IMG/VR virus record: IMGVR_UViG_3300047494_000058
Span: 1 to 64,000 of that record
From: a virus
Length of the DNA stretch: 64,000 bases
Reading direction: 5' to 3' (one strand)
A model generated the notes under the pieces. That model was not told where the DNA came from, did not search any database, and worked only from the letters and a program-made list of their open reading frames with translations. How positions within the stretch are numbered: position 1 is the first letter of the stretch; every line of letters begins with the position of its first letter. Shown piece after piece: positions 38,315-52,484 of this stretch. The translations under genes were made by a program, and so were the position numbers.

Positions 38315-38610
38315 CAGGGCCCCAAGGTGTTGGCAATCAATGTGGCATAGCCAGCGATGTCGTGCCAGCTGTCATAATGGTATGGGTCGCCGTTCAAGAT
38401 GCGCGCGATCTTTACCGAAATTATCGAAAGTGCTTCGCGCATATGCGGCGGGATCGGACGCCACCCGGCATCGTCAACTTCACTCTGCGGGTGCCAGTTC
38501 GGCGTGTTCATCATCACGGCCAGGAGCGCCTGCGAGATCTCGGACTGCTCGATGAAGCTGCCGTAGGTCTTGCCACGCTCCGCCAGTGTGGCCTGAATGT
38601 TATCAGTCAT
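38314..38610 (-). CDS. DUF6378-type protein
   Basis: 98 residues. LAERGKTYGSFIEQSEISQALLAVM and SIISVKIARILNGDPYHYDSWHDIAGYATLI match DUF6378, a small phage family with a nucleotide-enzyme-like helical pattern of conserved Glu, Lys, His and Asp. It overlaps the DatZ-like gene by 8 nt, hinting at a shared role in nucleotide handling. Activity unknown. Confidence 0.7.
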   Translation of the reverse strand: MTDNIQATLAERGKTYGSFIEQSEISQALLAVMMNTPNWHPQSEVDDAGWRPIPPHMREALSIISVKIARILNGDPYHYDSWHDIAGYATLIANTLGP

Positions 38611-39181
38611 TGGCTGCTCCTCGCGTCACATCGTCCACCATGACAGCCCATACCTCGTCGGCCGGCAGGCACGATTTCAGGACCCCGGGAACCTTCCCCC
38701 ACTGATAGGAGCCCTGTTTGGCCGCGGCCCCGTATGCAGCCCGGAATTGGTCGCGCAGGGACACCATGACGTGCCGGCGGTCCAGGCCGCCGTTTTGGTA
38801 GGCGAACAACGCGGTTTCGGTAATGTCGGCCAGCTTTACCACGGCGTCGACTATGGTGCCCTTATGGCCACGACCGCCCCGGACCTCGATCACGTCGCGG
38901 GCGTTCTCCTCGATCAGCCGGTAGACGTCGGGAGCCACCGCCTTGGCCGTGGCCGGGATGTCGCCCGTCAGCACTTCATGCAGGTCGTGGGCAAGTGCCC
39001 AGCGCTCGATGGCGGCCATGTCCAGCGAGTTGTGGTGATCAACGCCGATCGCCTCCGCGATGGCGCAGGCGATGTGGTACACGCGGTACTGGTGTTCGGC
39101 CAGCGACTGTGGGCGCGTGAGCGCTACAATCGTCCAGCGCTTGACCTCGGTCGCGCGCAGTGCTAATTCAAGGTTGGGCAT
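38603..39181 (-). CDS. datZ: DatZ-like HD phosphohydrolase (dATPase candidate)
   Basis: 192 residues, AAGGA 9 nt before ATG. HD-domain residues: His30 in SLAEH, His65-Asp66 in LAHDLHEVLTGDIP, Asp119 in VVKLADITE; the fold pattern matches YfbR-like 5'-deoxynucleotidases. Z-genome phage DatZ belongs to this HD group and removes dATP (to dA and triphosphate), so that only 2-aminoadenine nucleotide is incorporated. Assignment as DatZ rather than a general YfbR dNMP nucleotidase is inference from the PurZ, MazZ and DpoZ genes 3-6 kb away. Confidence 0.72.
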   Translation of the reverse strand: MPNLELALRATEVKRWTIVALTRPQSLAEHQYRVYHIACAIAEAIGVDHHNSLDMAAIERWALAHDLHEVLTGDIPATAKAVAPDVYRLIEENARDVIEVRGGRGHKGTIVDAVVKLADITETALFAYQNGGLDRRHVMVSLRDQFRAAYGAAAKQGSYQWGKVPGVLKSCLPADEVWAVMVDDVTRGAAND

Positions 39182-41905: not shown

Positions 41906-42466
41906 CTATAATGCTCCGTCGGGCCCCAGCGGCGGACATTCGATGCAGTCGCAGCCCGGCGCCTCGCAGTGGTGCGGGTTATCGTGCTGGGTCCAGGAGT
42001 GCCCACATGTGGGGCACGCGGCAGGGCGCGGCAGGTTCGTGATCTCCGGCCCCTCATTGTGCGGCGTCGGTGTCGGGTTCAAGGGGTCGACGCGCCGCGG
42101 CAGGGCCGGATTCTCAGGGTCGTTGTCCTGCTCGCCGGTCGGCAGTGGCGGTATGCTTGTGCTCATGGGTCGCTCCTCGATGTGTTGTGCCAGGCCGGTG
42201 ACCTCGTCGAACACCCAGCGCCTGGCCTCGTTTATTTCCATCTTCTCGGCGATCGCCTTCGCGATGTTGATGTGGTTCATGCTGCAGTAGTCGAGCAGCA
42301 GGATGAAGACGTCGGCCGCCTCGTGCGGGCTCGACGGGTCAGCGATAAGCTCGCCCACCTCCTGGTATAGTTTGAGGAACACGCCGGCCGACGTGCGCTT
42401 GGGGAACTGCCGGCTGGCCCAGGCCGTCACGGCGCGCTGGACGTCGGAGAAGCTGTCCCAGTTCAC
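41906..42466 (-). CDS. mazZ: MazZ-like MazG pyrophosphohydrolase with C-terminal zinc region
   Basis: 186 residues from GTG 42466, which overlaps the purZ stop as GTGA; the upstream frame lies inside purZ and is a shadow. The MazG core shows YQEVGELIADPSSPHEAADVFI: Glu36, Glu39, Glu49 and Asp52, the metal-binding E-x2-E...E-x2-D signature, followed by a MEINEARRW segment. Residues ~105-180 are extra: Pro-rich, then six Cys and three His (CPTCGHSW...CEAPGCDCIEC), probably a zinc-binding tail. In Z-genome phages MazZ converts dGTP (and dATP) to dGMP, the substrate of PurZ. Linkage to purZ supports that role. Confidence 0.78.
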   Translation of the reverse strand: MNWDSFSDVQRAVTAWASRQFPKRTSAGVFLKLYQEVGELIADPSSPHEAADVFILLLDYCSMNHINIAKAIAEKMEINEARRWVFDEVTGLAQHIEERPMSTSIPPLPTGEQDNDPENPALPRRVDPLNPTPTPHNEGPEITNLPRPAACPTCGHSWTQHDNPHHCEAPGCDCIECPPLGPDGAL

Positions 42467-43608
42467 TTGAACCACCTGCTGAAGCTGCCCTGGCTGAGCC
42501 ACTGCGCGGTGAACACGTCGTCCACATAGATCGCGTCCGCGGCTGTGGGCCCGAACGTGAGGATGCGCGGCCGGACGCCGGTCCAACTCTCAATCTCGAC
42601 CAGCCACTTGGACAGCTTCTCGCCGATGTTCTGCCCGTACTCGGGCTGCGGCGCCACATAGTCGGCAAACGTCAGTACCAGGTGGTTGGGGCTGCAGATC
42701 CAGGCGGCCTCGCGGGCCTGCTGAGCGCTGAACGTGAACACGCGCCGCGGCAGCCGAGTTACGGTCGTGAGTTCGGGCTCGCGGCCGAGGTCGGCCTGCC
42801 AGTCAAGTTCTGTCTGGTCGTCGTAGCATGCGCCGGACGTTCCGACGAGGCTTCCGTCGGCCGCGTCGTAGCGATTCGCTACTCTGATGGGGAATGTGCG
42901 CATCGTGCCCCAGACGGTGGCCCCCCGTGCGGTGTCGAACGGTATCCTGCAGTCGGCCAGCAGCTGCGTCACGCTGACGTCGCGCGAGGTCGTGTGCGGC
43001 CAGAACTTGGTGTGGCTGCCCAGCGAGAACCCCTGGGCGCCCTCGATCAGGATGTGCCGGGCGGTCGCGACCTCGGAGTTGTACAACTGCTCGGACACGC
43101 AGAACTGCACGTCAATCATCGCCAGCGCCTTCTGGATGTCGCGATACAGGGCCATCGGGGCGTCGCGGGCCAGCGGCGACTTGTACGGGTCGCGCCAGAT
43201 CTTGTCGATGGTCGCGGCCGAGGTGCCCTTCATCGTGGAGCCGATGCGCGCCAGCACCTTCTCGGCCTCGGCGTGCCGCGGCTGCAGGATGCAGGCGTTG
43301 GGGTGAATCACGATACGCTTACCGGCCAGGTAGCTGCGGGCCGCCTTGGCCTCGGCCAGCAGCGAGTCCAGGTTCACCACCGACCCGGGGCCGATCAGCT
43401 GCGTGCACACGCTGTGGCACACCAGGCTGTTGGCCAGCATTGTGTGCACGAACTTGTGGCCCGCGGCGTTGATCGCCGTGTGGCCGGCGTTCGGGCCCCA
43501 AGCCGTCATCGCCACGTCGGGCTGCAGCTGTTCGCCCAGGAGGTGTGCCAGCGCGCCCTTACCGGTGCTGCCGTACTGCATATCGACCACTATATCAAGC
43601 TTTGTCAT
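42463..43608 (-). CDS. purZ: PurZ, 2-aminoadenylosuccinate (dSMP) synthetase candidate
   Basis: 381 residues, PurA fold. N-terminal QYGSTGKG (residues 11-18) is the PurA P-loop in which E. coli PurA has W-G-D-E-G-K-G-K. The Asp that acts as catalytic base (Asp13 in E. coli) is replaced by Ser14. This Asp to Ser change is the published signature of phage PurZ, which uses dGMP and Asp instead of IMP. GPNAGHT carries the conserved His, and ILIEGAQGFSLGSH...PHTTSRDVSV is conserved in the family. The product feeds host PurB and then kinases to give dZTP. Length is shorter than PurA (~430), as in phage PurZ. Confidence 0.85.
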   Translation of the reverse strand: MTKLDIVVDMQYGSTGKGALAHLLGEQLQPDVAMTAWGPNAGHTAINAAGHKFVHTMLANSLVCHSVCTQLIGPGSVVNLDSLLAEAKAARSYLAGKRIVIHPNACILQPRHAEAEKVLARIGSTMKGTSAATIDKIWRDPYKSPLARDAPMALYRDIQKALAMIDVQFCVSEQLYNSEVATARHILIEGAQGFSLGSHTKFWPHTTSRDVSVTQLLADCRIPFDTARGATVWGTMRTFPIRVANRYDAADGSLVGTSGACYDDQTELDWQADLGREPELTTVTRLPRRVFTFSAQQAREAAWICSPNHLVLTFADYVAPQPEYGQNIGEKLSKWLVEIESWTGVRPRILTFGPTAADAIYVDDVFTAQWLSQGSFSRWFK

Positions 43609-45446
43609 TTTGCCGTCGCCTCGAACCAGTTCTTACCAGTCTTGCCTTTGCAGAGTATGGGAACCCTGAACTTCAGGGGTGTCTTTTCGCCATCGAACCG
43701 TTGCAACAGGTCGAGGATGTCGACCTGCTTGACCTGCTTGCCTAGCGAGATGCACAGTTCGTCGTGCACCGACAGCATCAGGCGCGAGTCGGTCCCGTGC
43801 AGCATCTCGGCGACCTCGATCATCTTGTATTTGATGATGTCGGCGCAGGCGCCCTGGAACAGGAGCCCTGCGGCCTTGTGCGCGCCCTGACCTCGCGGGA
43901 AGTGCAGTCGGCGCTTCAAGGGCGTAAGGATGTAGCCGCGGGCCTTGGCCACGGACTCGGCGCCGTTGGTCATGCCCTTGATGCCAGGGATCGTCGCGTG
44001 GTATTTCTTGAAGATCGCCTCCGCGGCCTCGCCGGCCCGGAAGTAGCCGCGCTCGTCCACCCAGTAAGGCAGGCCCATCTCGCGCGCCAGCTTCCCCTGG
44101 CCCATACCAAACACCATCGCAAGGTTAATCTGCTTGGCGTTAGCTCCGCCGGTCTTCTGGTCGCGGTTACGCGGCACGCCCACCAGCTTCGACACCAGGC
44201 CGTGGAAGTCGACCATGGGGTCGGCCGCGTAGGCGTCGAGCAGTACGGGCTCCTTCACGTAGTGCGCAAAGCAGCGAAAGTCGATCTGGTCGTAGTCCGC
44301 GCTCAACCAGCTGTTGCCGACGTCGGGCAGGAACAGCGACCGCACTATGCGGGCAAGCTTCACGTCCCTCGCGTGGATCTGTTGCAGTGCGGGCTCGGTC
44401 ACGCTCATGCGGCCGGTGGTCGTGCCGGAATCCGCCTCGGTCTTGGTCTGGTTGATGTTGCAGTGGATGTAACCCTTGTAGCTGTCGCCCAGCACGTACC
44501 GGTTGACGAACACGTCGCGGGCCTTGATCATGCCGCGGATATTCGCGATCAGCCCGGCCTCGGGGAACTTCATATTGTTGAGAGCATGCGTCCGGACCGA
44601 CGCGTTGCCGCCGTCGGTGGGCTCCAGCGGCGTGCCGTCCCGCGCCCGCCACTGGCCCTGGTCGTCCTTCACGGGCGCCACGATCTTGAGCACCTGCGGC
44701 CCTGAGTTCACGTTGACCTTGGAGCCCACCAGGCGGTCGAGTTCGCGCTGGTCGGCCTGGACCTGGCGGTCGAGCTCCTTGGAGGCGATCTCGGCGCGCT
44801 CCAGGTCCACGCGTACGCCGCGCTTCTCCAGGTCCAGCACGACGCCCAGCAGCTGCCGCTCGACACCGCAGATGTAGCGCAGGTCCTGCTTCTCGATCTC
44901 GCGCTCCTGGGCCAGCCAGACGCGCAGCGCTATCGCGGCGTCCGGGCAGGCGTACGTCGCTACCATCTCCTCGGGCGCGTACTGCAGGTTCAGGATCTGC
45001 GCATCCCGCGTGGCCTTGCCACCGTGGGCCTGCGCCAGGGCGCCCCATATCTCGACGCTCTTTTTACCGGCGTCGTACTTGCCACCCAGCGAATCCAGGC
45101 TGTACTCGTGCCGGTGTTCGTCGATCAGCGCCTCGCGAATCATGGTGCAGTCGATCTTGGCCGGGTCGAGCGGACAGCCGGCCTCGCGCAGGAAGTGCGC
45201 GTCGAACTTGATGTTATGGTTGACGACCTTGCGCGCCCGGCGCAACTGGTCAAAAGCCCAGCGGCGCTGGTTCTCGATGCGGATGTCGACGTAGATGCTG
45301 TCGACCTTGGTGCCGCCAGCAAACCAGGCGAAGGCCAGGCCGAACGGCTCGTCCTTCCAGAACTTCAGGCCCGTGGTCTCGGCATCACACGCGATCACGT
45401 GATGGCTCGACAGATCAGGGAGAAGCTTGAGTCGCTGTTGCGTCAC
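43605..45446 (-). CDS. dpoZ: Family A DNA polymerase, DpoZ candidate
   Basis: 613 residues, GTG start. The 3'-5' exonuclease domain has Asp21/Glu23 (DAETTGL), Asp82 (NIKFDAHF) and Tyr165/Asp169 (YACPD). The polymerase domain has motif A SADYDQIDFR (Asp384), motif B ANAKQINLAMVFGMG (Lys438) and motif C SVHDELCIS (Asp562). In motif B the positions equivalent to E. coli Arg754, Phe762 and Tyr766 appear to be Gly, Leu (442) and Phe (446). The 5' nuclease domain is absent. In Z-genome phages DpoZ is a PolA-family enzyme that prefers dZTP over dATP; here it overlaps purZ by 4 nt, so the DpoZ role is inferred from linkage. Confidence 0.82.
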   Translation of the reverse strand: MTQQRLKLLPDLSSHHVIACDAETTGLKFWKDEPFGLAFAWFAGGTKVDSIYVDIRIENQRRWAFDQLRRARKVVNHNIKFDAHFLREAGCPLDPAKIDCTMIREALIDEHRHEYSLDSLGGKYDAGKKSVEIWGALAQAHGGKATRDAQILNLQYAPEEMVATYACPDAAIALRVWLAQEREIEKQDLRYICGVERQLLGVVLDLEKRGVRVDLERAEIASKELDRQVQADQRELDRLVGSKVNVNSGPQVLKIVAPVKDDQGQWRARDGTPLEPTDGGNASVRTHALNNMKFPEAGLIANIRGMIKARDVFVNRYVLGDSYKGYIHCNINQTKTEADSGTTTGRMSVTEPALQQIHARDVKLARIVRSLFLPDVGNSWLSADYDQIDFRCFAHYVKEPVLLDAYAADPMVDFHGLVSKLVGVPRNRDQKTGGANAKQINLAMVFGMGQGKLAREMGLPYWVDERGYFRAGEAAEAIFKKYHATIPGIKGMTNGAESVAKARGYILTPLKRRLHFPRGQGAHKAAGLLFQGACADIIKYKMIEVAEMLHGTDSRLMLSVHDELCISLGKQVKQVDILDLLQRFDGEKTPLKFRVPILCKGKTGKNWFEATAK

Positions 45447-45592: not shown

Positions 45593-45700
45593 TCACGCGG
45601 CGTCTACCAGCAGCAGTGTCACCGTAATGATCGCAATAGTAGCCATCAACCAGATCGCATGTTCCCAGGTGAACTGCGGCCGGCGGGGCTTCGGTATCAT
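45593..45700 (-). CDS. 35-residue single-span membrane protein
   Basis: Starts at ATG 45700 overlapping the helicase TGA (ATGA). Basic/Pro N-terminus (MIPKPRRPQFTWEH) and one membrane span (WLMATIAIITVTLLLV). Second micro-membrane gene of the same length next to the polymerase gene. Function unknown. Confidence 0.6.
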   Translation of the reverse strand: MIPKPRRPQFTWEHAIWLMATIAIITVTLLLVDAA

Positions 45701-47097
45701 GCCGCCCTCGGGAACAGGTATCCGTTCGTGTCGTGCACCAGGAACAGGTTCGTCTTAGCGCGGGTGACCCCAACGTACATTACGCGATGCTCGGCGTCCT
45801 GGTCCTTGTAGAACGACTCAATGGTCGACTTAGTCATTGACGACACCACGACCACCGAGTCCGCCTCCATGCCCTTGGCGCTGTGGATCGTACGCAGGTC
45901 GACGCGCCGGGCGTCCAAGCTCACGCGCTGCAGGTACGAGATCTCGGCGTGATTGGTGTTGATGACGTCGGTGGCCTTCTCGCCGTCGAGCATCTCGGCC
46001 ACGGCGCCGTAGCCCACGGTGTCGGCCAGCTGCAGGCCATACTGCGTGAGCCCGGAGCGGATCACGCGGATGTCGACCGCCTCGAACCACTTCTCCTGGC
46101 GCAGCCGGTGGAACGCCTGCCCGGAGCGCTTCTGCAGCGGCGAGTTGCCGACATCGGTTACGAACGGCACGAGTTCCTCGGTGAGCAGCCGCACGTACTT
46201 GGCGCGCGAATATTTGTTCCTGAACAGGATCATCATGGAGTTGCCGCGGTACAGGTCGCGCAGCATGGGCTTGTCGAGCGCGACGCCGGACGCGACGCGC
46301 CCCTCCGCCGGCCGGGGCCTGTACTCCTTGTGCTGGCGGGCCGACATCTTGGACGCGATCGCCTGAGCCAGCGAGTGCACGGCCGAGGGCACGCGGTACG
46401 ACTGCGATAGCACCTTGACCTCGGAGTCATGCTTCTCGGCGAAGCGTGCCATGCCGTGCGGGTCGGCGCCGGTCCACTGGAAGATCGCCTGGTCGTCGTC
46501 GCCGGCCACGGTCACGTCGTCGCACACTTCGAGCATGCGCTCGACCACGGCCCAGTGCAGCGGCGTCAGGTCCTGCGCCTCGTCGATCACCAGCGAGCCC
46601 AGGCGCGCGACGAACCCGCGCTCGACGGTCATGGTAAGCATGTCTGTGTAATCCACAAATCCAAACGCATCCTTCCATTCTCGATAGGCGTGTACGAAAC
46701 GCCTAAAATCTGTACGGCTGCCGACTGCACCATAAGCCTCAAAAGCGGCGTCATCAGTGATTCCGACGGTGCGAGCGAAACTGTTAACGTGAAAATAGGT
46801 CCGGAGTTCACTCGGCTTCTCCTCATCGGCCTCCAGGATGAACCCGGTGCGCTTGCAGAACGACTCCAGGTTGTGGTCGGACACGACCTGCGCCCGCGAC
46901 AGACCCAGCGCCCGGAAACACAAGCTGTGGATCGTTGACGCCTTCCAGTCGATGCCGGTTTTCTTGAGTTCCTGATACTGCGCCGACGACGTCGCCGCCT
47001 GCGCCGCGGTGCGGGTATGCGAGCAAAACGTCACCGTGCCGTGGCGCTCCAGCGAGCGCTGTACAAGATAGGTCGTTTTTCCTGTGCCCGGCATCAT
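45697..47097 (-). CDS. SF1 DNA helicase, N-terminus disrupted at Walker A
   Basis: 466 residues if started at ATG 47097. Walker A PGTGKTT at residues 3-9, SHTRTAA, motif II VIDEAQDLT, GDDDQAIFQWTGAD, LSQSYRVP, and C-terminal TIHSAKGMEADSVVV and YVGVTRAK. These define an SF1 helicase (UvrD/Dda-like). The first strand before Walker A is missing from this reading. In another frame immediately upstream, GTG 47135 (AAGAGG 7 nt upstream) gives GKIPNHTVFGPP then TGA. Removing 8 nt (ATGATGCC) would fuse this to GTGKTT in frame. The gene is either interrupted, or restarts at the ATGATG created there. Confidence 0.75.
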   Translation of the reverse strand: MMPGTGKTTYLVQRSLERHGTVTFCSHTRTAAQAATSSAQYQELKKTGIDWKASTIHSLCFRALGLSRAQVVSDHNLESFCKRTGFILEADEEKPSELRTYFHVNSFARTVGITDDAAFEAYGAVGSRTDFRRFVHAYREWKDAFGFVDYTDMLTMTVERGFVARLGSLVIDEAQDLTPLHWAVVERMLEVCDDVTVAGDDDQAIFQWTGADPHGMARFAEKHDSEVKVLSQSYRVPSAVHSLAQAIASKMSARQHKEYRPRPAEGRVASGVALDKPMLRDLYRGNSMMILFRNKYSRAKYVRLLTEELVPFVTDVGNSPLQKRSGQAFHRLRQEKWFEAVDIRVIRSGLTQYGLQLADTVGYGAVAEMLDGEKATDVINTNHAEISYLQRVSLDARRVDLRTIHSAKGMEADSVVVVSSMTKSTIESFYKDQDAEHRVMYVGVTRAKTNLFLVHDTNGYLFPRAA

Positions 47098-47950: not shown

Positions 47951-48745
47951 CTAGTAGTCCTTGCCTGGCTCCAACGCGTCGTCCGGCGGCGTGTCGGTGC
48001 TGGTATCGGCCACCACGTTACGCTCGCCCCGCTTGACCGACTCGTACAGCGCCTCGCCCTTCTTGTACACCTCGACCGGCGCGAACCCCAGCGTCTGCAC
48101 GTTGAGGTTCCAGAAATCGTCGCCCTTGTCGTTACTGTCCTCGACTGCGAACACGTTGTAGATCCTGGTGAAGCGGTCGTTGCCGTTCATCCGGATCAGC
48201 GCGTTCCAGGCCCGCGACACCTTGAGTTTGGAGCGCGACATGGAGACCACGATCTCCTCGGTCTCGCCGGTCGCGTCGTCCAGGAGCAGGCAGAACTGCT
48301 GGGCAGTCTCCTGCGCGGTGAACTGCTCGGGGTCGTCCTCCTGATTAATGCGGATCTGCGCCTCTTCCAGGGTCGGGAACGCGCCCCGGAACCCGCCACC
48401 GGCCTTGCGGTCCTTCCATACCAGGTACTCCTTGCGGAAGAACACCGGGCATACCACCGCATTGTGTCCGTACAGCTTACGGGTTACCGAGTTGAAGAGC
48501 ATGCCCTGCTCGGCGCCCTCGATGTACGCGGGGTCGCTCTTCTTGATCGCGGGCGACAGCGCCTGGATGACTTCGAGCCTGGGGATGACCAGGTCCTCCA
48601 TCCCGACGTTCTCGCTGCCGCGGTTCATACCCTGCTTGATGTAGTCGGGCACGGCCACTGTGCCGGCCTGCTCTTTCTTCGCCACCTGTGTGGCGGCCTT
48701 GGGTACCACTGCCTTGTTCGCTGTCTTGCTTGCTGCTGATGCCAT
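47951..48745 (-). CDS. Conserved phage protein, putative ssDNA-binding/recombination accessory
   Basis: 264 residues. The N-terminus is Ala/Lys rich. The segment GMEDLVIPRLEVIQALSPAI, then GMLFNSVTRKLYGHNAVVCPVFFRKEYLVWKDRKAGGG, is a pattern shared by a widespread family of phage proteins encoded near replication genes. A ssDNA-binding or annealing role has been suggested for such proteins but is not shown by sequence. Charged C-terminal tail (TPPDDALEPGKDY) fits ssDNA-binding proteins with acidic tails. Confidence 0.6.
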   Translation of the reverse strand: MASAASKTANKAVVPKAATQVAKKEQAGTVAVPDYIKQGMNRGSENVGMEDLVIPRLEVIQALSPAIKKSDPAYIEGAEQGMLFNSVTRKLYGHNAVVCPVFFRKEYLVWKDRKAGGGFRGAFPTLEEAQIRINQEDDPEQFTAQETAQQFCLLLDDATGETEEIVVSMSRSKLKVSRAWNALIRMNGNDRFTRIYNVFAVEDSNDKGDDFWNLNVQTLGFAPVEVYKKGEALYESVKRGERNVVADTSTDTPPDDALEPGKDY

Positions 48746-48778: not shown

Positions 48779-49444
48779 CTACGACGTTTTGATGGCGGCT
48801 CGCGTGAACGGCCGTGTTTCTACGATCTCGGACGGGACGTCCTTTCTGCCCTCCTCTGGTTTGAGCTTGTTCTGCGCACGGATGAAAGCGGCCAGCGTCT
48901 GCGCGTTTACGCTGTCCTGGATCATGTCCTCCAGCAGGTTGTCAATCAGCCATTGCTTGAGGCCATCCTTATCCAGCACGGTGACCTGAATGTCGTCAGA
49001 CAGATAGCAGGTGCCGACGTCGGCCACCGTGATCTTTTCGATGCCCTTCTCGTCGAACAGGTCCGGCAGGTGCGAGAACCGGATGCGGTCGAGGAGCGCC
49101 GACTGCGCCGACGTGATCGCCTTCAGCTGGTTGCCCAACTGCTTGATGCGCGCCATCGACTTGACCAACCCCTCGACGTTCCCCTCCTCGCGCAGCTTGT
49201 CGACATGCATCCCGGCGCTTACGATGATCTCCCCGAGGCTCGCGAGCGGAGTGGCTATATCAGCCTTGGGTTTCGTCGCAGGCGGCGCCGCGGGCTTCCT
49301 CTTGGCTCCCGCCAGTGCCGACGCGGCCCGGTTTGGGGTCGCCGGCATGCCGATCTTCTCCTTGTACTGCTCGTACGCCGACTTCGGCCGGTCCTCGTGG
49401 GTCTTGATCGCGCCGACCCCTGACGCCTTCTTCGCTGCCGCCAT
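48779..49444 (-). CDS. Hypothetical replication-region protein
   Basis: 221 residues from ATG 49444 with GAGGA upstream; longer open frame is shadow. N-terminal Lys/Ala/Pro-rich segment, then helices (VDKLREEGNVEGLVKSMARIKQLGNQLKAITSAQ) and a beta/helix C-terminal part. It is the partner upstream of the ssDNA-binding-like gene; conserved pairs of this kind occur in phages but the role is unknown. Confidence 0.6.
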   Translation of the reverse strand: MAAAKKASGVGAIKTHEDRPKSAYEQYKEKIGMPATPNRAASALAGAKRKPAAPPATKPKADIATPLASLGEIIVSAGMHVDKLREEGNVEGLVKSMARIKQLGNQLKAITSAQSALLDRIRFSHLPDLFDEKGIEKITVADVGTCYLSDDIQVTVLDKDGLKQWLIDNLLEDMIQDSVNAQTLAAFIRAQNKLKPEEGRKDVPSEIVETRPFTRAAIKTS

Positions 49445-49457
49445 GTTCGCTATTCCT

Positions 49458-49793
49458 CTATGCTGCTGCTGTTTGTGACAAATCAATCGAGTAAGGTATG
49501 TACCGGTAGTGCATGGCGTCCCAGGCCAGGAACTGGTGCCTGGCCCCATGTTCCATCAGGATCATGCTGACCACACACATCTTGAGCGGCTTGCCCGTCG
49601 GTATCAGGTAATCCACCATGGGCACGTAGTTCTTCAGCTGCTTGCGCAGGCTGTGGACGACGTCCCGGTTCCAGTGGTCGTCGCCACCGGCACCTGTTGC
49701 AAAATTCTGGGCACGCAAGCTCACGACGTCACCGAACGCTTCCGCTGGTGTATAGTCGAAGCTGTTCGTGTCCATTATGTAGACCGTAGCCAT
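49458..49793 (-). CDS. Hypothetical protein
   Basis: 111 residues from ATG 49793 (upstream codons are shadow). Contains DDHWNRDVVHSLRKQLKNYVPMVDYLIPTGKPLKMCVVSMILMEHG. No recognised family. A TAAAAT-type -10 element (49820 region) precedes it with a weak -35 element. Confidence 0.55.
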   Translation of the reverse strand: MATVYIMDTNSFDYTPAEAFGDVVSLRAQNFATGAGGDDHWNRDVVHSLRKQLKNYVPMVDYLIPTGKPLKMCVVSMILMEHGARHQFLAWDAMHYRYIPYSIDLSQTAAA

Positions 49794-50625: not shown

Positions 50626-50859
50626 CTATACGATCACTTCCCGGCCTTCCTGCATCTGCTGCTTTCTTTTGCAAGTCGCAACGATTACTGCCACTCTATC
50701 AGGCCCCAGGCCCACTTCCCGCGCTATGCTAGCATAAGTGCAACCTGCGGCGTGGTCTGCGATGATTTTAGCGTTTCGGGCCGTATATGCATCAGGGTCG
50801 GTTAGTGCTAGTGACCACTGTTTGACCTTCCTGCGTCTCTTTCCATTAATTATAATCAT
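50626..50859 (-). CDS. HTH-like small protein
   Basis: 77 residues; the segment ADHAAGCTYASIAREVGLGPDRVAVIVATC resembles a helix-turn-helix with a basic N-terminus (GKRRRKVKQW). ATG 50859 overlaps the SNF2-like gene stop by 4 nt. Likely DNA-binding. Confidence 0.55.
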   Translation of the reverse strand: MIIINGKRRRKVKQWSLALTDPDAYTARNAKIIADHAAGCTYASIAREVGLGPDRVAVIVATCKRKQQMQEGREVIV

Positions 50860-52484
50860 ACCATGATCTCCTTTCCTGCCTGCATCTGCTGCGCTACATA
50901 TGTTGCAAGGTCGAGCTTAACCTCATGCGCTGCCACCAGCGTCTCGTCCACTGTCTTGTTCGCCACGAAGTCAATATACGTGACCGGATGGCGGAGGCCG
51001 GCGCGGTGAGCGCGGTCCTCGGACTGCGTGCGGATCACGTAGCTGTTGGAGTGCGAGTAGTAAATCACGGTCTCGGCCGCGGTCAGCGTCAGGCCCACGT
51101 GCGCCAGCTGCGTGGTCGACACGAAGTACCTGTAGACGCCATTCTGGAACCCGTGGATCAGCGCCTGCCGCTGGTCGGCGTCGAGGTCCGAGGTGAACAC
51201 GGCAGCCTTGCCCTCGGGCAGCACGTCGGTTATCAGCCTAAGTTCAGGCACCCACTCGCAAAAGATGATGACCGGCCCCTGCAGAACTTCAAGTTCGGTG
51301 ATCAGCGCCTGCAGGCGCGTGTTGTCCTTCGCCGGGATGCGCGCCACCGGCACGCCGTCCTCATTCGGCAGGAACCCGCCCAGCAGCTGGCGCAGGCGCA
51401 GCATCTTCACCAATACGTTCTTGAGTTCGAACGGCTCCAGCGCGTTCTTCTTCAGCGCGGCGTACTGGTCACGGTGCGCCTTCGAGAGTTCGATGTAGCG
51501 CCGCGTGTAAATCTTCTCTGGTAGGTCCAAGCACTCCTTCTTGGTGATGGCGAAGGTGTACGGCTGGATGAACCCCATAAACTCTTCGACGTTGTCGTAG
51601 CCGATGATGTTCTTCTTCTTGAACCCGCCCATGATGGCGTAGCGGTTGCGGAACGCGTAGAAGTCGCCGATGCCGATGATGTTGGGGTCCAGGAACTCGT
51701 ACTGGGAGTACAGGTCGATCAGCGACTTGGTAACCGGCGTACCGGTCAGGCACAGCCGGACCTTGGCCTGGCGCCCGATCTGCTGCAGGATCTGCGTCCG
51801 CACTGTGCTGTGCGTCTTGATGGAGTGCGACTCGTCGATGACCATCATGAACTTATGGTATGGAGCCCAGGCCATGAAGGCGGCGCCGGCCCTGCCCTGG
51901 GAGAATGACTCCACGCCCGCGATGATGAAGCAGATCTCGCCGTCGCGGATGTTACTCACGCCCTTGAACTTGGAGTCGGCGCGGTGTACGACGAACGGCA
52001 GCGGGCAGTGGGTTCTGAGTTCGTCCTCCCAGGTGCGGCACACCGACATCGGGCAGACGATGACGACGTACTGTACGCGCTGGTGCAGGTAGTGCGCGCA
52101 GCCGACATCGATTGCCACCTTGGTCTTGGCCGTGCCCTGCTCCATCGACAGGAAGAACGCGTCGCGGGCGTACGCCAGCTGCATGGCCCGCTTCTGGTGT
52201 TCGTAGGGCTCGGGGCCGGCGTGCCTGTACCAGGCCGGCCAGGCGCGCAACTCCTGCGTGCCGCTGGTGGCCCGGTGCGCAGCCTCCAACGCCTCGGGCT
52301 GCCACTCCCATTTGTCGCTCTTCAATGTATCGAGCATGACCTGGCAGTTCAGCCGCGTCGCCGGTACCTGCCAGACCCCGGCCTTCTTCATGAACCGGCG
52401 CATGGGCAGCCGCATCACCGGGCCGATGAACTGCGGCGGCGCGTTAATGAAGAACTGATTCTTGTCAGCGACGTAGCGGATCAT
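50856..52484 (-). CDS. SNF2-like SF2 helicase/ATPase
   Basis: 542 residues. Motif I SMEQGTAKTKVA (Walker A), motif Ia VVIVCPMSV, motif II VIDESHSIK (DESH), motif III LTGTPVTKS, motif IV VIIFCEWVPEL, motif V VSTTQLAHVGLTLTAA and motif VI RTQSEDRAHRAG. An SNF2/SF2 ATPase without extra domains, typical of phage replication regions. It probably translocates on dsDNA; role in replication or recombination inferred. Confidence 0.85.
   Translation of the reverse strand: MIRYVADKNQFFINAPPQFIGPVMRLPMRRFMKKAGVWQVPATRLNCQVMLDTLKSDKWEWQPEALEAAHRATSGTQELRAWPAWYRHAGPEPYEHQKRAMQLAYARDAFFLSMEQGTAKTKVAIDVGCAHYLHQRVQYVVIVCPMSVCRTWEDELRTHCPLPFVVHRADSKFKGVSNIRDGEICFIIAGVESFSQGRAGAAFMAWAPYHKFMMVIDESHSIKTHSTVRTQILQQIGRQAKVRLCLTGTPVTKSLIDLYSQYEFLDPNIIGIGDFYAFRNRYAIMGGFKKKNIIGYDNVEEFMGFIQPYTFAITKKECLDLPEKIYTRRYIELSKAHRDQYAALKKNALEPFELKNVLVKMLRLRQLLGGFLPNEDGVPVARIPAKDNTRLQALITELEVLQGPVIIFCEWVPELRLITDVLPEGKAAVFTSDLDADQRQALIHGFQNGVYRYFVSTTQLAHVGLTLTAAETVIYYSHSNSYVIRTQSEDRAHRAGLRHPVTYIDFVANKTVDETLVAAHEVKLDLATYVAQQMQAGKEIMV

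Follow-up and report, generated by a model that had tools for sequence, protein, structure and literature searches.

The polymerase gene and its neighbourhood

The window, a stretch of 64,000 nucleotides from an IMG/VR virus record of 72,224 bases in all, encodes a family A DNA polymerase in a single uninterrupted open reading frame of 613 amino acids, which lies on the minus strand and runs from a GTG start at 45446 down to 43605; the plus-strand translation of 43605-45446 is interrupted by stops. The protein combines 3'-5' exonuclease and polymerase domains (PF01612 and PF00476), and the catalytic residues of both are in place (D21, E23, D82, D169, R346, D384, K438, H561 and D562). It matches the NCBIfam model of the φVC8-like DpoZ-1 polymerases (NF038380, phage_DpoZ_1) with 700 bits at a cut-off of 500, and the model of the Wayne-like enzymes (NF038381, DpoZ_2) with 34 bits, below the cut-off of 350. 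By sequence as well as by fold the best structural match is 7PBK, the DpoZ of φVC8: the AlphaFold2 model of the window polymerase (mean pLDDT 91) matches 7pbk_B with a Z score of 38.4 and an rmsd of 2.8 Å over 582 residues. The gene finds one weak blastn match among phages, and a search of the viral contig collection with the window PolA as sole query found no stretch.

The 3' end of the polymerase gene is overlapped by purZ (42463..43608, minus strand), which encodes a succino-amino-deoxyadenylate synthase and matches NF038379 with 314 bits at a cut-off of 300. Also on the minus strand are genes for a mazZ-like dATP/dGTP pyrophosphohydrolase (41906..42586, PF04447) and a datZ-like HD/YfbR-type phosphohydrolase (38603..39181, PF12917). 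Both are matched by our own HMMs as well; sequences of the window and of the named phages are among those from which our PolA, PurZ, DatZ and MazZ models were built, and matches to them are therefore by construction. Of the 154 loci with both genes, 153 have purZ downstream of polA, on the same strand and at a distance of no more than 2.6 kb. Upstream of the polymerase are a UvrD helicase (45697-47097) and an SNF2 helicase (50856-52484), and between these helicases a Pam3 gp34-like protein (47951-48745) and a Pam3 gp33-like protein (DUF7307; 48779-49549). UvrD and SNF2 beside a Leu762 PolA is the setting reported for the virioplankton 'Leu762 group II' in the available text of PMC6302109. The gp33-like protein recurs near a polymerase with Tyr766 (locus L196) and could be part of a replication module that the two neighbourhoods share.

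The earlier note had linked the polymerase to purZ and to DpoZ, and both points are borne out by the NF038380 and NF038379 matches and by the mazZ- and datZ-like genes nearby. Judged from its sequence, the window protein is an ordinary φVC8-like DpoZ, which adds one more member to the known DpoZ-1 family. It is the putative replicative polymerase of a phage that would replace adenine by 2-aminoadenine (Z). The NF038380 score alone is no proof of Z use, since relatives with Tyr766 and without purZ (see below) reach 764-784 bits.

Motif B and the displaced arginine

Motif B reads AKQINLAMVFG (residues 437-447, 44106..44138; this and the following window features are on the minus strand). The earlier note equated Leu442 and Phe446 with Phe762 and Tyr766 of E. 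coli, and alignment with Pol I and known DpoZ enzymes agrees: Leu442 (44121..44123) corresponds to E. coli F762 and φVC8 L455, and Phe446 (44109..44111) to E. coli Y766 and φVC8 F459. The third φVC8 residue considered, G548 in motif 6, is also retained, as Gly527 (43866..43868; E. coli N845). The odd residues in motif B are real, but an already-published signature of DpoZ: a 2021 paper on φVC8 lists L455 and F459 as deviating from what is usual in the family (PMC8599892, in the part available).

The claim that the position of Arg754 is not Arg does not stand. A gap-free alignment places Gly434 on R754; MAFFT with nearer outgroups (simpler Leu762 PolA) places R754 on Arg426 (44169..44171) of the window, with a gap of eight residues before Lys438. 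The spacing from Arg426 to Lys438 is 11 residues in the window versus 3 in E. coli, and the apparent loss of the arginine is an alignment effect of an insertion that splits helix O (the helix-O insertion or 'insertion 2', residues 427-437, 44136..44168, between Arg426 and Lys438). In the structural model this region forms a helix (414-422), a loop (423-436) and a second helix (437-445). The accessible text of PMC8599892 describes the same for φVC8, where the seemingly absent Arg is structurally kept as R440 and insertion 2 splits helix O. The Arg426 column is Arg in all 104 unique Phe766 enzymes and in 4/4 Tyr766 relatives described below, which together with the MAFFT placement rules out that the motif B Arg was lost. 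One of the DpoZ-1 search patterns sits inside the helix-O insertion, so our DpoZ scan gives no measure of how general the insertion is; no pattern covers residues 762 or 766.

The window polymerase is 37-39% identical to the DpoZ of φVC8 (7PBK, NF038380) and shares with it the Leu and Phe of motif B, the displaced Arg, the helix-O loop, the G548 site, the exonuclease residues and the purZ-datZ-mazZ setting. At the sites of insertions 1 and 3 the window has residues that are absent from E. coli. The two enzymes differ in that the window has Gly447 (FG) at a site that is Asn in φVC8 and most other members, Asp389 in place of Glu at the Glu710 site, an insertion 2 that is one residue longer, and an insertion 3 that is shorter in the alignment. 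The Wayne/Ghobes-like DpoZ_2 enzymes (NF038381) resemble the window in Phe766 and purZ linkage, but have Phe762, no helix-O insertion, and Arg754 in register. The PolA of φJL001 and of other phages share Leu762 with the window, and φJL001 has two insertions, as reported in PMC8599892; the Leu762 control PolA read here differ from the window in having Tyr766 and no purZ.

Distribution of Leu762 and Phe766 with and without purZ

We scanned IMG/VR with ten DpoZ queries (best 80 of 160 loci taken), with nine PurZ queries (best 80 of 384 loci taken) and with the Tyr766 relatives (19 loci), and added 11 named phages, OH and BP63 among them. After six of 170 PolA loci with fewer than 450 amino acids had been dropped, 164 loci with 113 unique proteins remained. 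All 101 unique purZ-linked DpoZ-1 proteins from the loci taken have Leu762 and Phe766, which is more than expected by chance. The other unique proteins are one purZ-linked Met762/Ser766 enzyme (phage OH), four with Leu762/Tyr766 and four with Phe762/Tyr766 for which purZ was not found, and three on Leu762/Phe766 contigs with no purZ seen; the latter and the 101 purZ-linked proteins are the 104 unique Phe766 enzymes referred to throughout. Sampling by purZ first gave Leu762/Phe766 at 69/69 readable sites among the best 80 of 384 loci, ten of these 80 having no PolA match and one a PolA that ends before the motif. The DpoZ-2 phages Ghobes, MeganNoll and Theresita all have a PurZ match and Phe762/Phe766 (3/3), and none of the 13 whole phage genomes with Tyr766 has a PurZ match. 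According to the text of PMC8599892 available to us, Phe is the sole change common to both DpoZ clades; the present counts extend this published pattern.

For the control scan we used Leu762 PolA of purZ-less phages as queries, with patterns that avoid positions 762 and 766, and took the best 80 of at least 583 loci. No purZ was found in these 80 loci, though the sequence extends at least 2.5 kb downstream of polA in only 18 of them, which makes the absence of purZ there weaker evidence. Leu762 is present in 80/80, Tyr766 in 79/79 readable sites and Glu710 in 80/80. Leu762 also occurs without purZ in three whole phage genomes (023Pt_psg01, FP1 and PC1) and in the Tyr766 relatives, so the residues singled out by the earlier note part company: Leu762 is found in PolA phages that lack purZ, the observation that the note itself had named as refuting its reading, and Phe766, among the PolA read, is not, save for the three contigs with no purZ seen. 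The abundance of Leu762 in viromes was already known (PMC6302109 and PMC9069017, in the parts available). The sequences show Leu442 to be untied to Z: a large lineage of phage PolA has Leu762 as its background state. In the sample read, Phe766 marks Z, save for OH and one contig, L172.

Ochrobactrum phage OH (13523-15349 of L009) has purZ, datZ and mazZ, and its PolA with Met762/Ser766 scores 253 bits against DpoZ_1, under the cut-off of 500. OH also encodes a primase-polymerase. Either it copies Z-DNA in a third way, or its PolA is not the replicase. In L172 (contig G011, 30.7 kb) the DpoZ-like polymerase has Phe766, Asp710 and a helix-O insertion that is longer, and searches of the contig for purZ, datZ and mazZ found none; it is a fragment or a true exception. 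Two further Phe766 contigs, L065 and L077, likewise show no purZ, and their sequence stops less than 2.4 kb from polA.

The replicative polymerase of phage S-2L is a primase-polymerase. Ten purZ loci had no PolA found (L101, L113, L122, L140, L146, L147, L153, L159, L160 and L165); some are cut short, while others, L122 and L165, are flanked by about 10 kb on either side. By analogy with S-2L, L122 and L165 might use a primase-polymerase.

Five loci (L062, L063, L064, L068 and L072; four unique proteins) encode DpoZ-like polymerases in which Tyr766 is combined with Leu762, the helix-O insertion and the retained Arg. No purZ is present on the contigs over their full lengths of 8.8, 36.4, 19.2, 37.2 and 9.9 kb, respectively, and our DatZ and MazZ models find no match on them. 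The three that were scanned with NF038380 (L063, L064 and L072) score above the 700 bits of the window, and the name 'aminoadenine-incorporating' DpoZ is likely an over-annotation for these relatives.

Phe446 and the nascent base pair pocket

The Tyr766 relatives allow a comparison across the whole protein. Thirteen columns separate them from the 104 unique Phe766 enzymes, and column 446 is the only one that is invariantly Phe in the Phe766 set, Tyr in 4/4 Tyr766 relatives and 5/5 outgroups, and Phe again in 3/3 enzymes of the unrelated DpoZ-2 group. The column of φVC8 G548 (Gly527 in the window) is Gly in 103/104 Phe766 enzymes, Ala in the Tyr766 clade, and Asn in the outgroups and DpoZ-2. 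Of the three residues in the earlier note, two were correctly described, and the interpretation as discriminators of Z from A fits one: Phe446 follows purZ and is the sole residue here to do so, while Leu442 is also found without purZ and Arg754 is merely displaced.

A second site of interest is Asp389 (44280..44282), which occupies the position of the E. coli steric gate Glu710. This site is Asp in 20 of the 104 unique Phe766 enzymes, the window included; all Tyr766 enzymes read have Glu, and the tree requires at least five changes here. The part of PMC8599892 available to us has no mention of E710 or of glutam-. In Pol I, a hydrogen-bonded Glu710-Tyr766 pair shapes the nascent base pair pocket; PMC4882331, in the sections available, calls both residues universally conserved and finds that Y766F stays closed in simulations. 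The preference of the φVC8 enzyme for dZTP persists when exonuclease activity is lacking (PMC8599892, same limitation), which places some of the selectivity in the polymerase site.

We suggest that DpoZ breaks the Tyr766-Glu710 pair, by Phe446 together with Asp389 in the window and by Phe with Glu in most other members. With the pair lost, the closed state would be more sensitive to how stable the nascent base pair is, and the fingers would close preferentially on the stronger, three-bond Z:T pair; alternatively, the lost pair might make room for a contact with the 2-amino group in the minor groove. The helix-O loop and exonuclease cycling would act jointly with the broken pair to disfavour A:T, so that Phe446 is probably one contributor rather than a lone switch.

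The Tyr766 relatives may descend from a Z-DNA ancestor that lost its Z genes and restored Tyr766, a reading that we consider evenly balanced. In a quick tree from which the motif B columns were left out, they fall within the Phe766, purZ-containing enzymes (SH-aLRT 88, 96 and 93 on the enclosing branches), a single clade of Phe766 enzymes appears in just 87 of 1000 bootstrap trees, and contig G002 retains the SNF2, DUF7307 and UvrD replication genes around its Tyr766 polymerase. However, the careful tree does not settle the position of the relatives, and trees in which the Phe766 enzymes form a single clade with the Tyr766 relatives branching outside it are not rejected by the AU test (p 0.50). 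Reversion may thus have occurred, perhaps even probably, but given the AU test it is not a certainty.

A rival to a role for Phe446, less likely than not though with a real chance of being correct, is that Phe766 is a mere lineage marker and that specificity comes from the insertions, fast switching from polymerase to exonuclease, and the nucleotide pool enzymes. PMC8599892, in the text available, proposes base-pair-sensitive backtracking with no single residue explaining specificity, and notes that a Tyr-to-Phe mutant of Taq works in ordinary cells. Leu762 enzymes that carry the helix-O insertion group in one clade, only two independent purZ contrasts fall on well-supported branches (the sign test is not significant), and, because a single Phe766 clade is not rejected, the association may reflect one inheritance and one convergence. 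OH, with purZ and without Phe766 (though with a primase-polymerase as well), and L172, with Phe766 and without purZ in 30.7 kb, weigh against the explanation favoured below. Against a mere marker, Phe766 also arose in DpoZ-2, which has neither the helix-O insertion nor Leu762, and the purZ-less Tyr766 clade has the insertions and Leu762 yet carries Tyr. That Leu762 discriminates Z from A, as the earlier note suggested, is very improbable: it is invariant in DpoZ-1 (104/104 unique Phe766 enzymes) and residue 762 of Pol I touches the incoming nucleotide (PMC13228545, available part), but the 80/80 control loci without purZ found (best 80 of at least 583) rule it out as a mark of Z, it is abundant in viromes, with 934 of 2,045 in a single sample (PMC6302109, available part), and it is absent from the DpoZ-2 enzymes read.

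The explanation that we favour, and hold with considerable confidence, is that of a φVC8-like DpoZ with Leu442 as background and the motif B Arg kept, in which Phe446 is one contributor to Z preference. A wider scenario, rather unlikely to be right, is that Z-polymerases arose at least twice by dismantling the Glu710-Tyr766 pocket, Tyr766Phe coming first and freeing Glu710 to become Asp, and that a lineage which lost its Z genes restored Tyr766 and kept Leu762 and the insertions. If this were true, residue 766 could be read as a mark of genome chemistry.

The Tyr766 DpoZ-like clade without purZ, datZ or mazZ and the E710D substitution are new, although an earlier description in the family A literature is possible. 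The available text of the crystal paper (PMC8599892) reports no single determinant of Z versus A for DpoZ. A purZ-less relative that shares Leu762 and the insertions, yet has Tyr766, provides a ready-made natural contrast. Caution is warranted in annotation, where NF038380 can name an 'aminoadenine-incorporating' polymerase in phages that show no Z genes. Together, the Tyr766 relatives and E710D make the selection of Z directly testable at residues 766 and 710.
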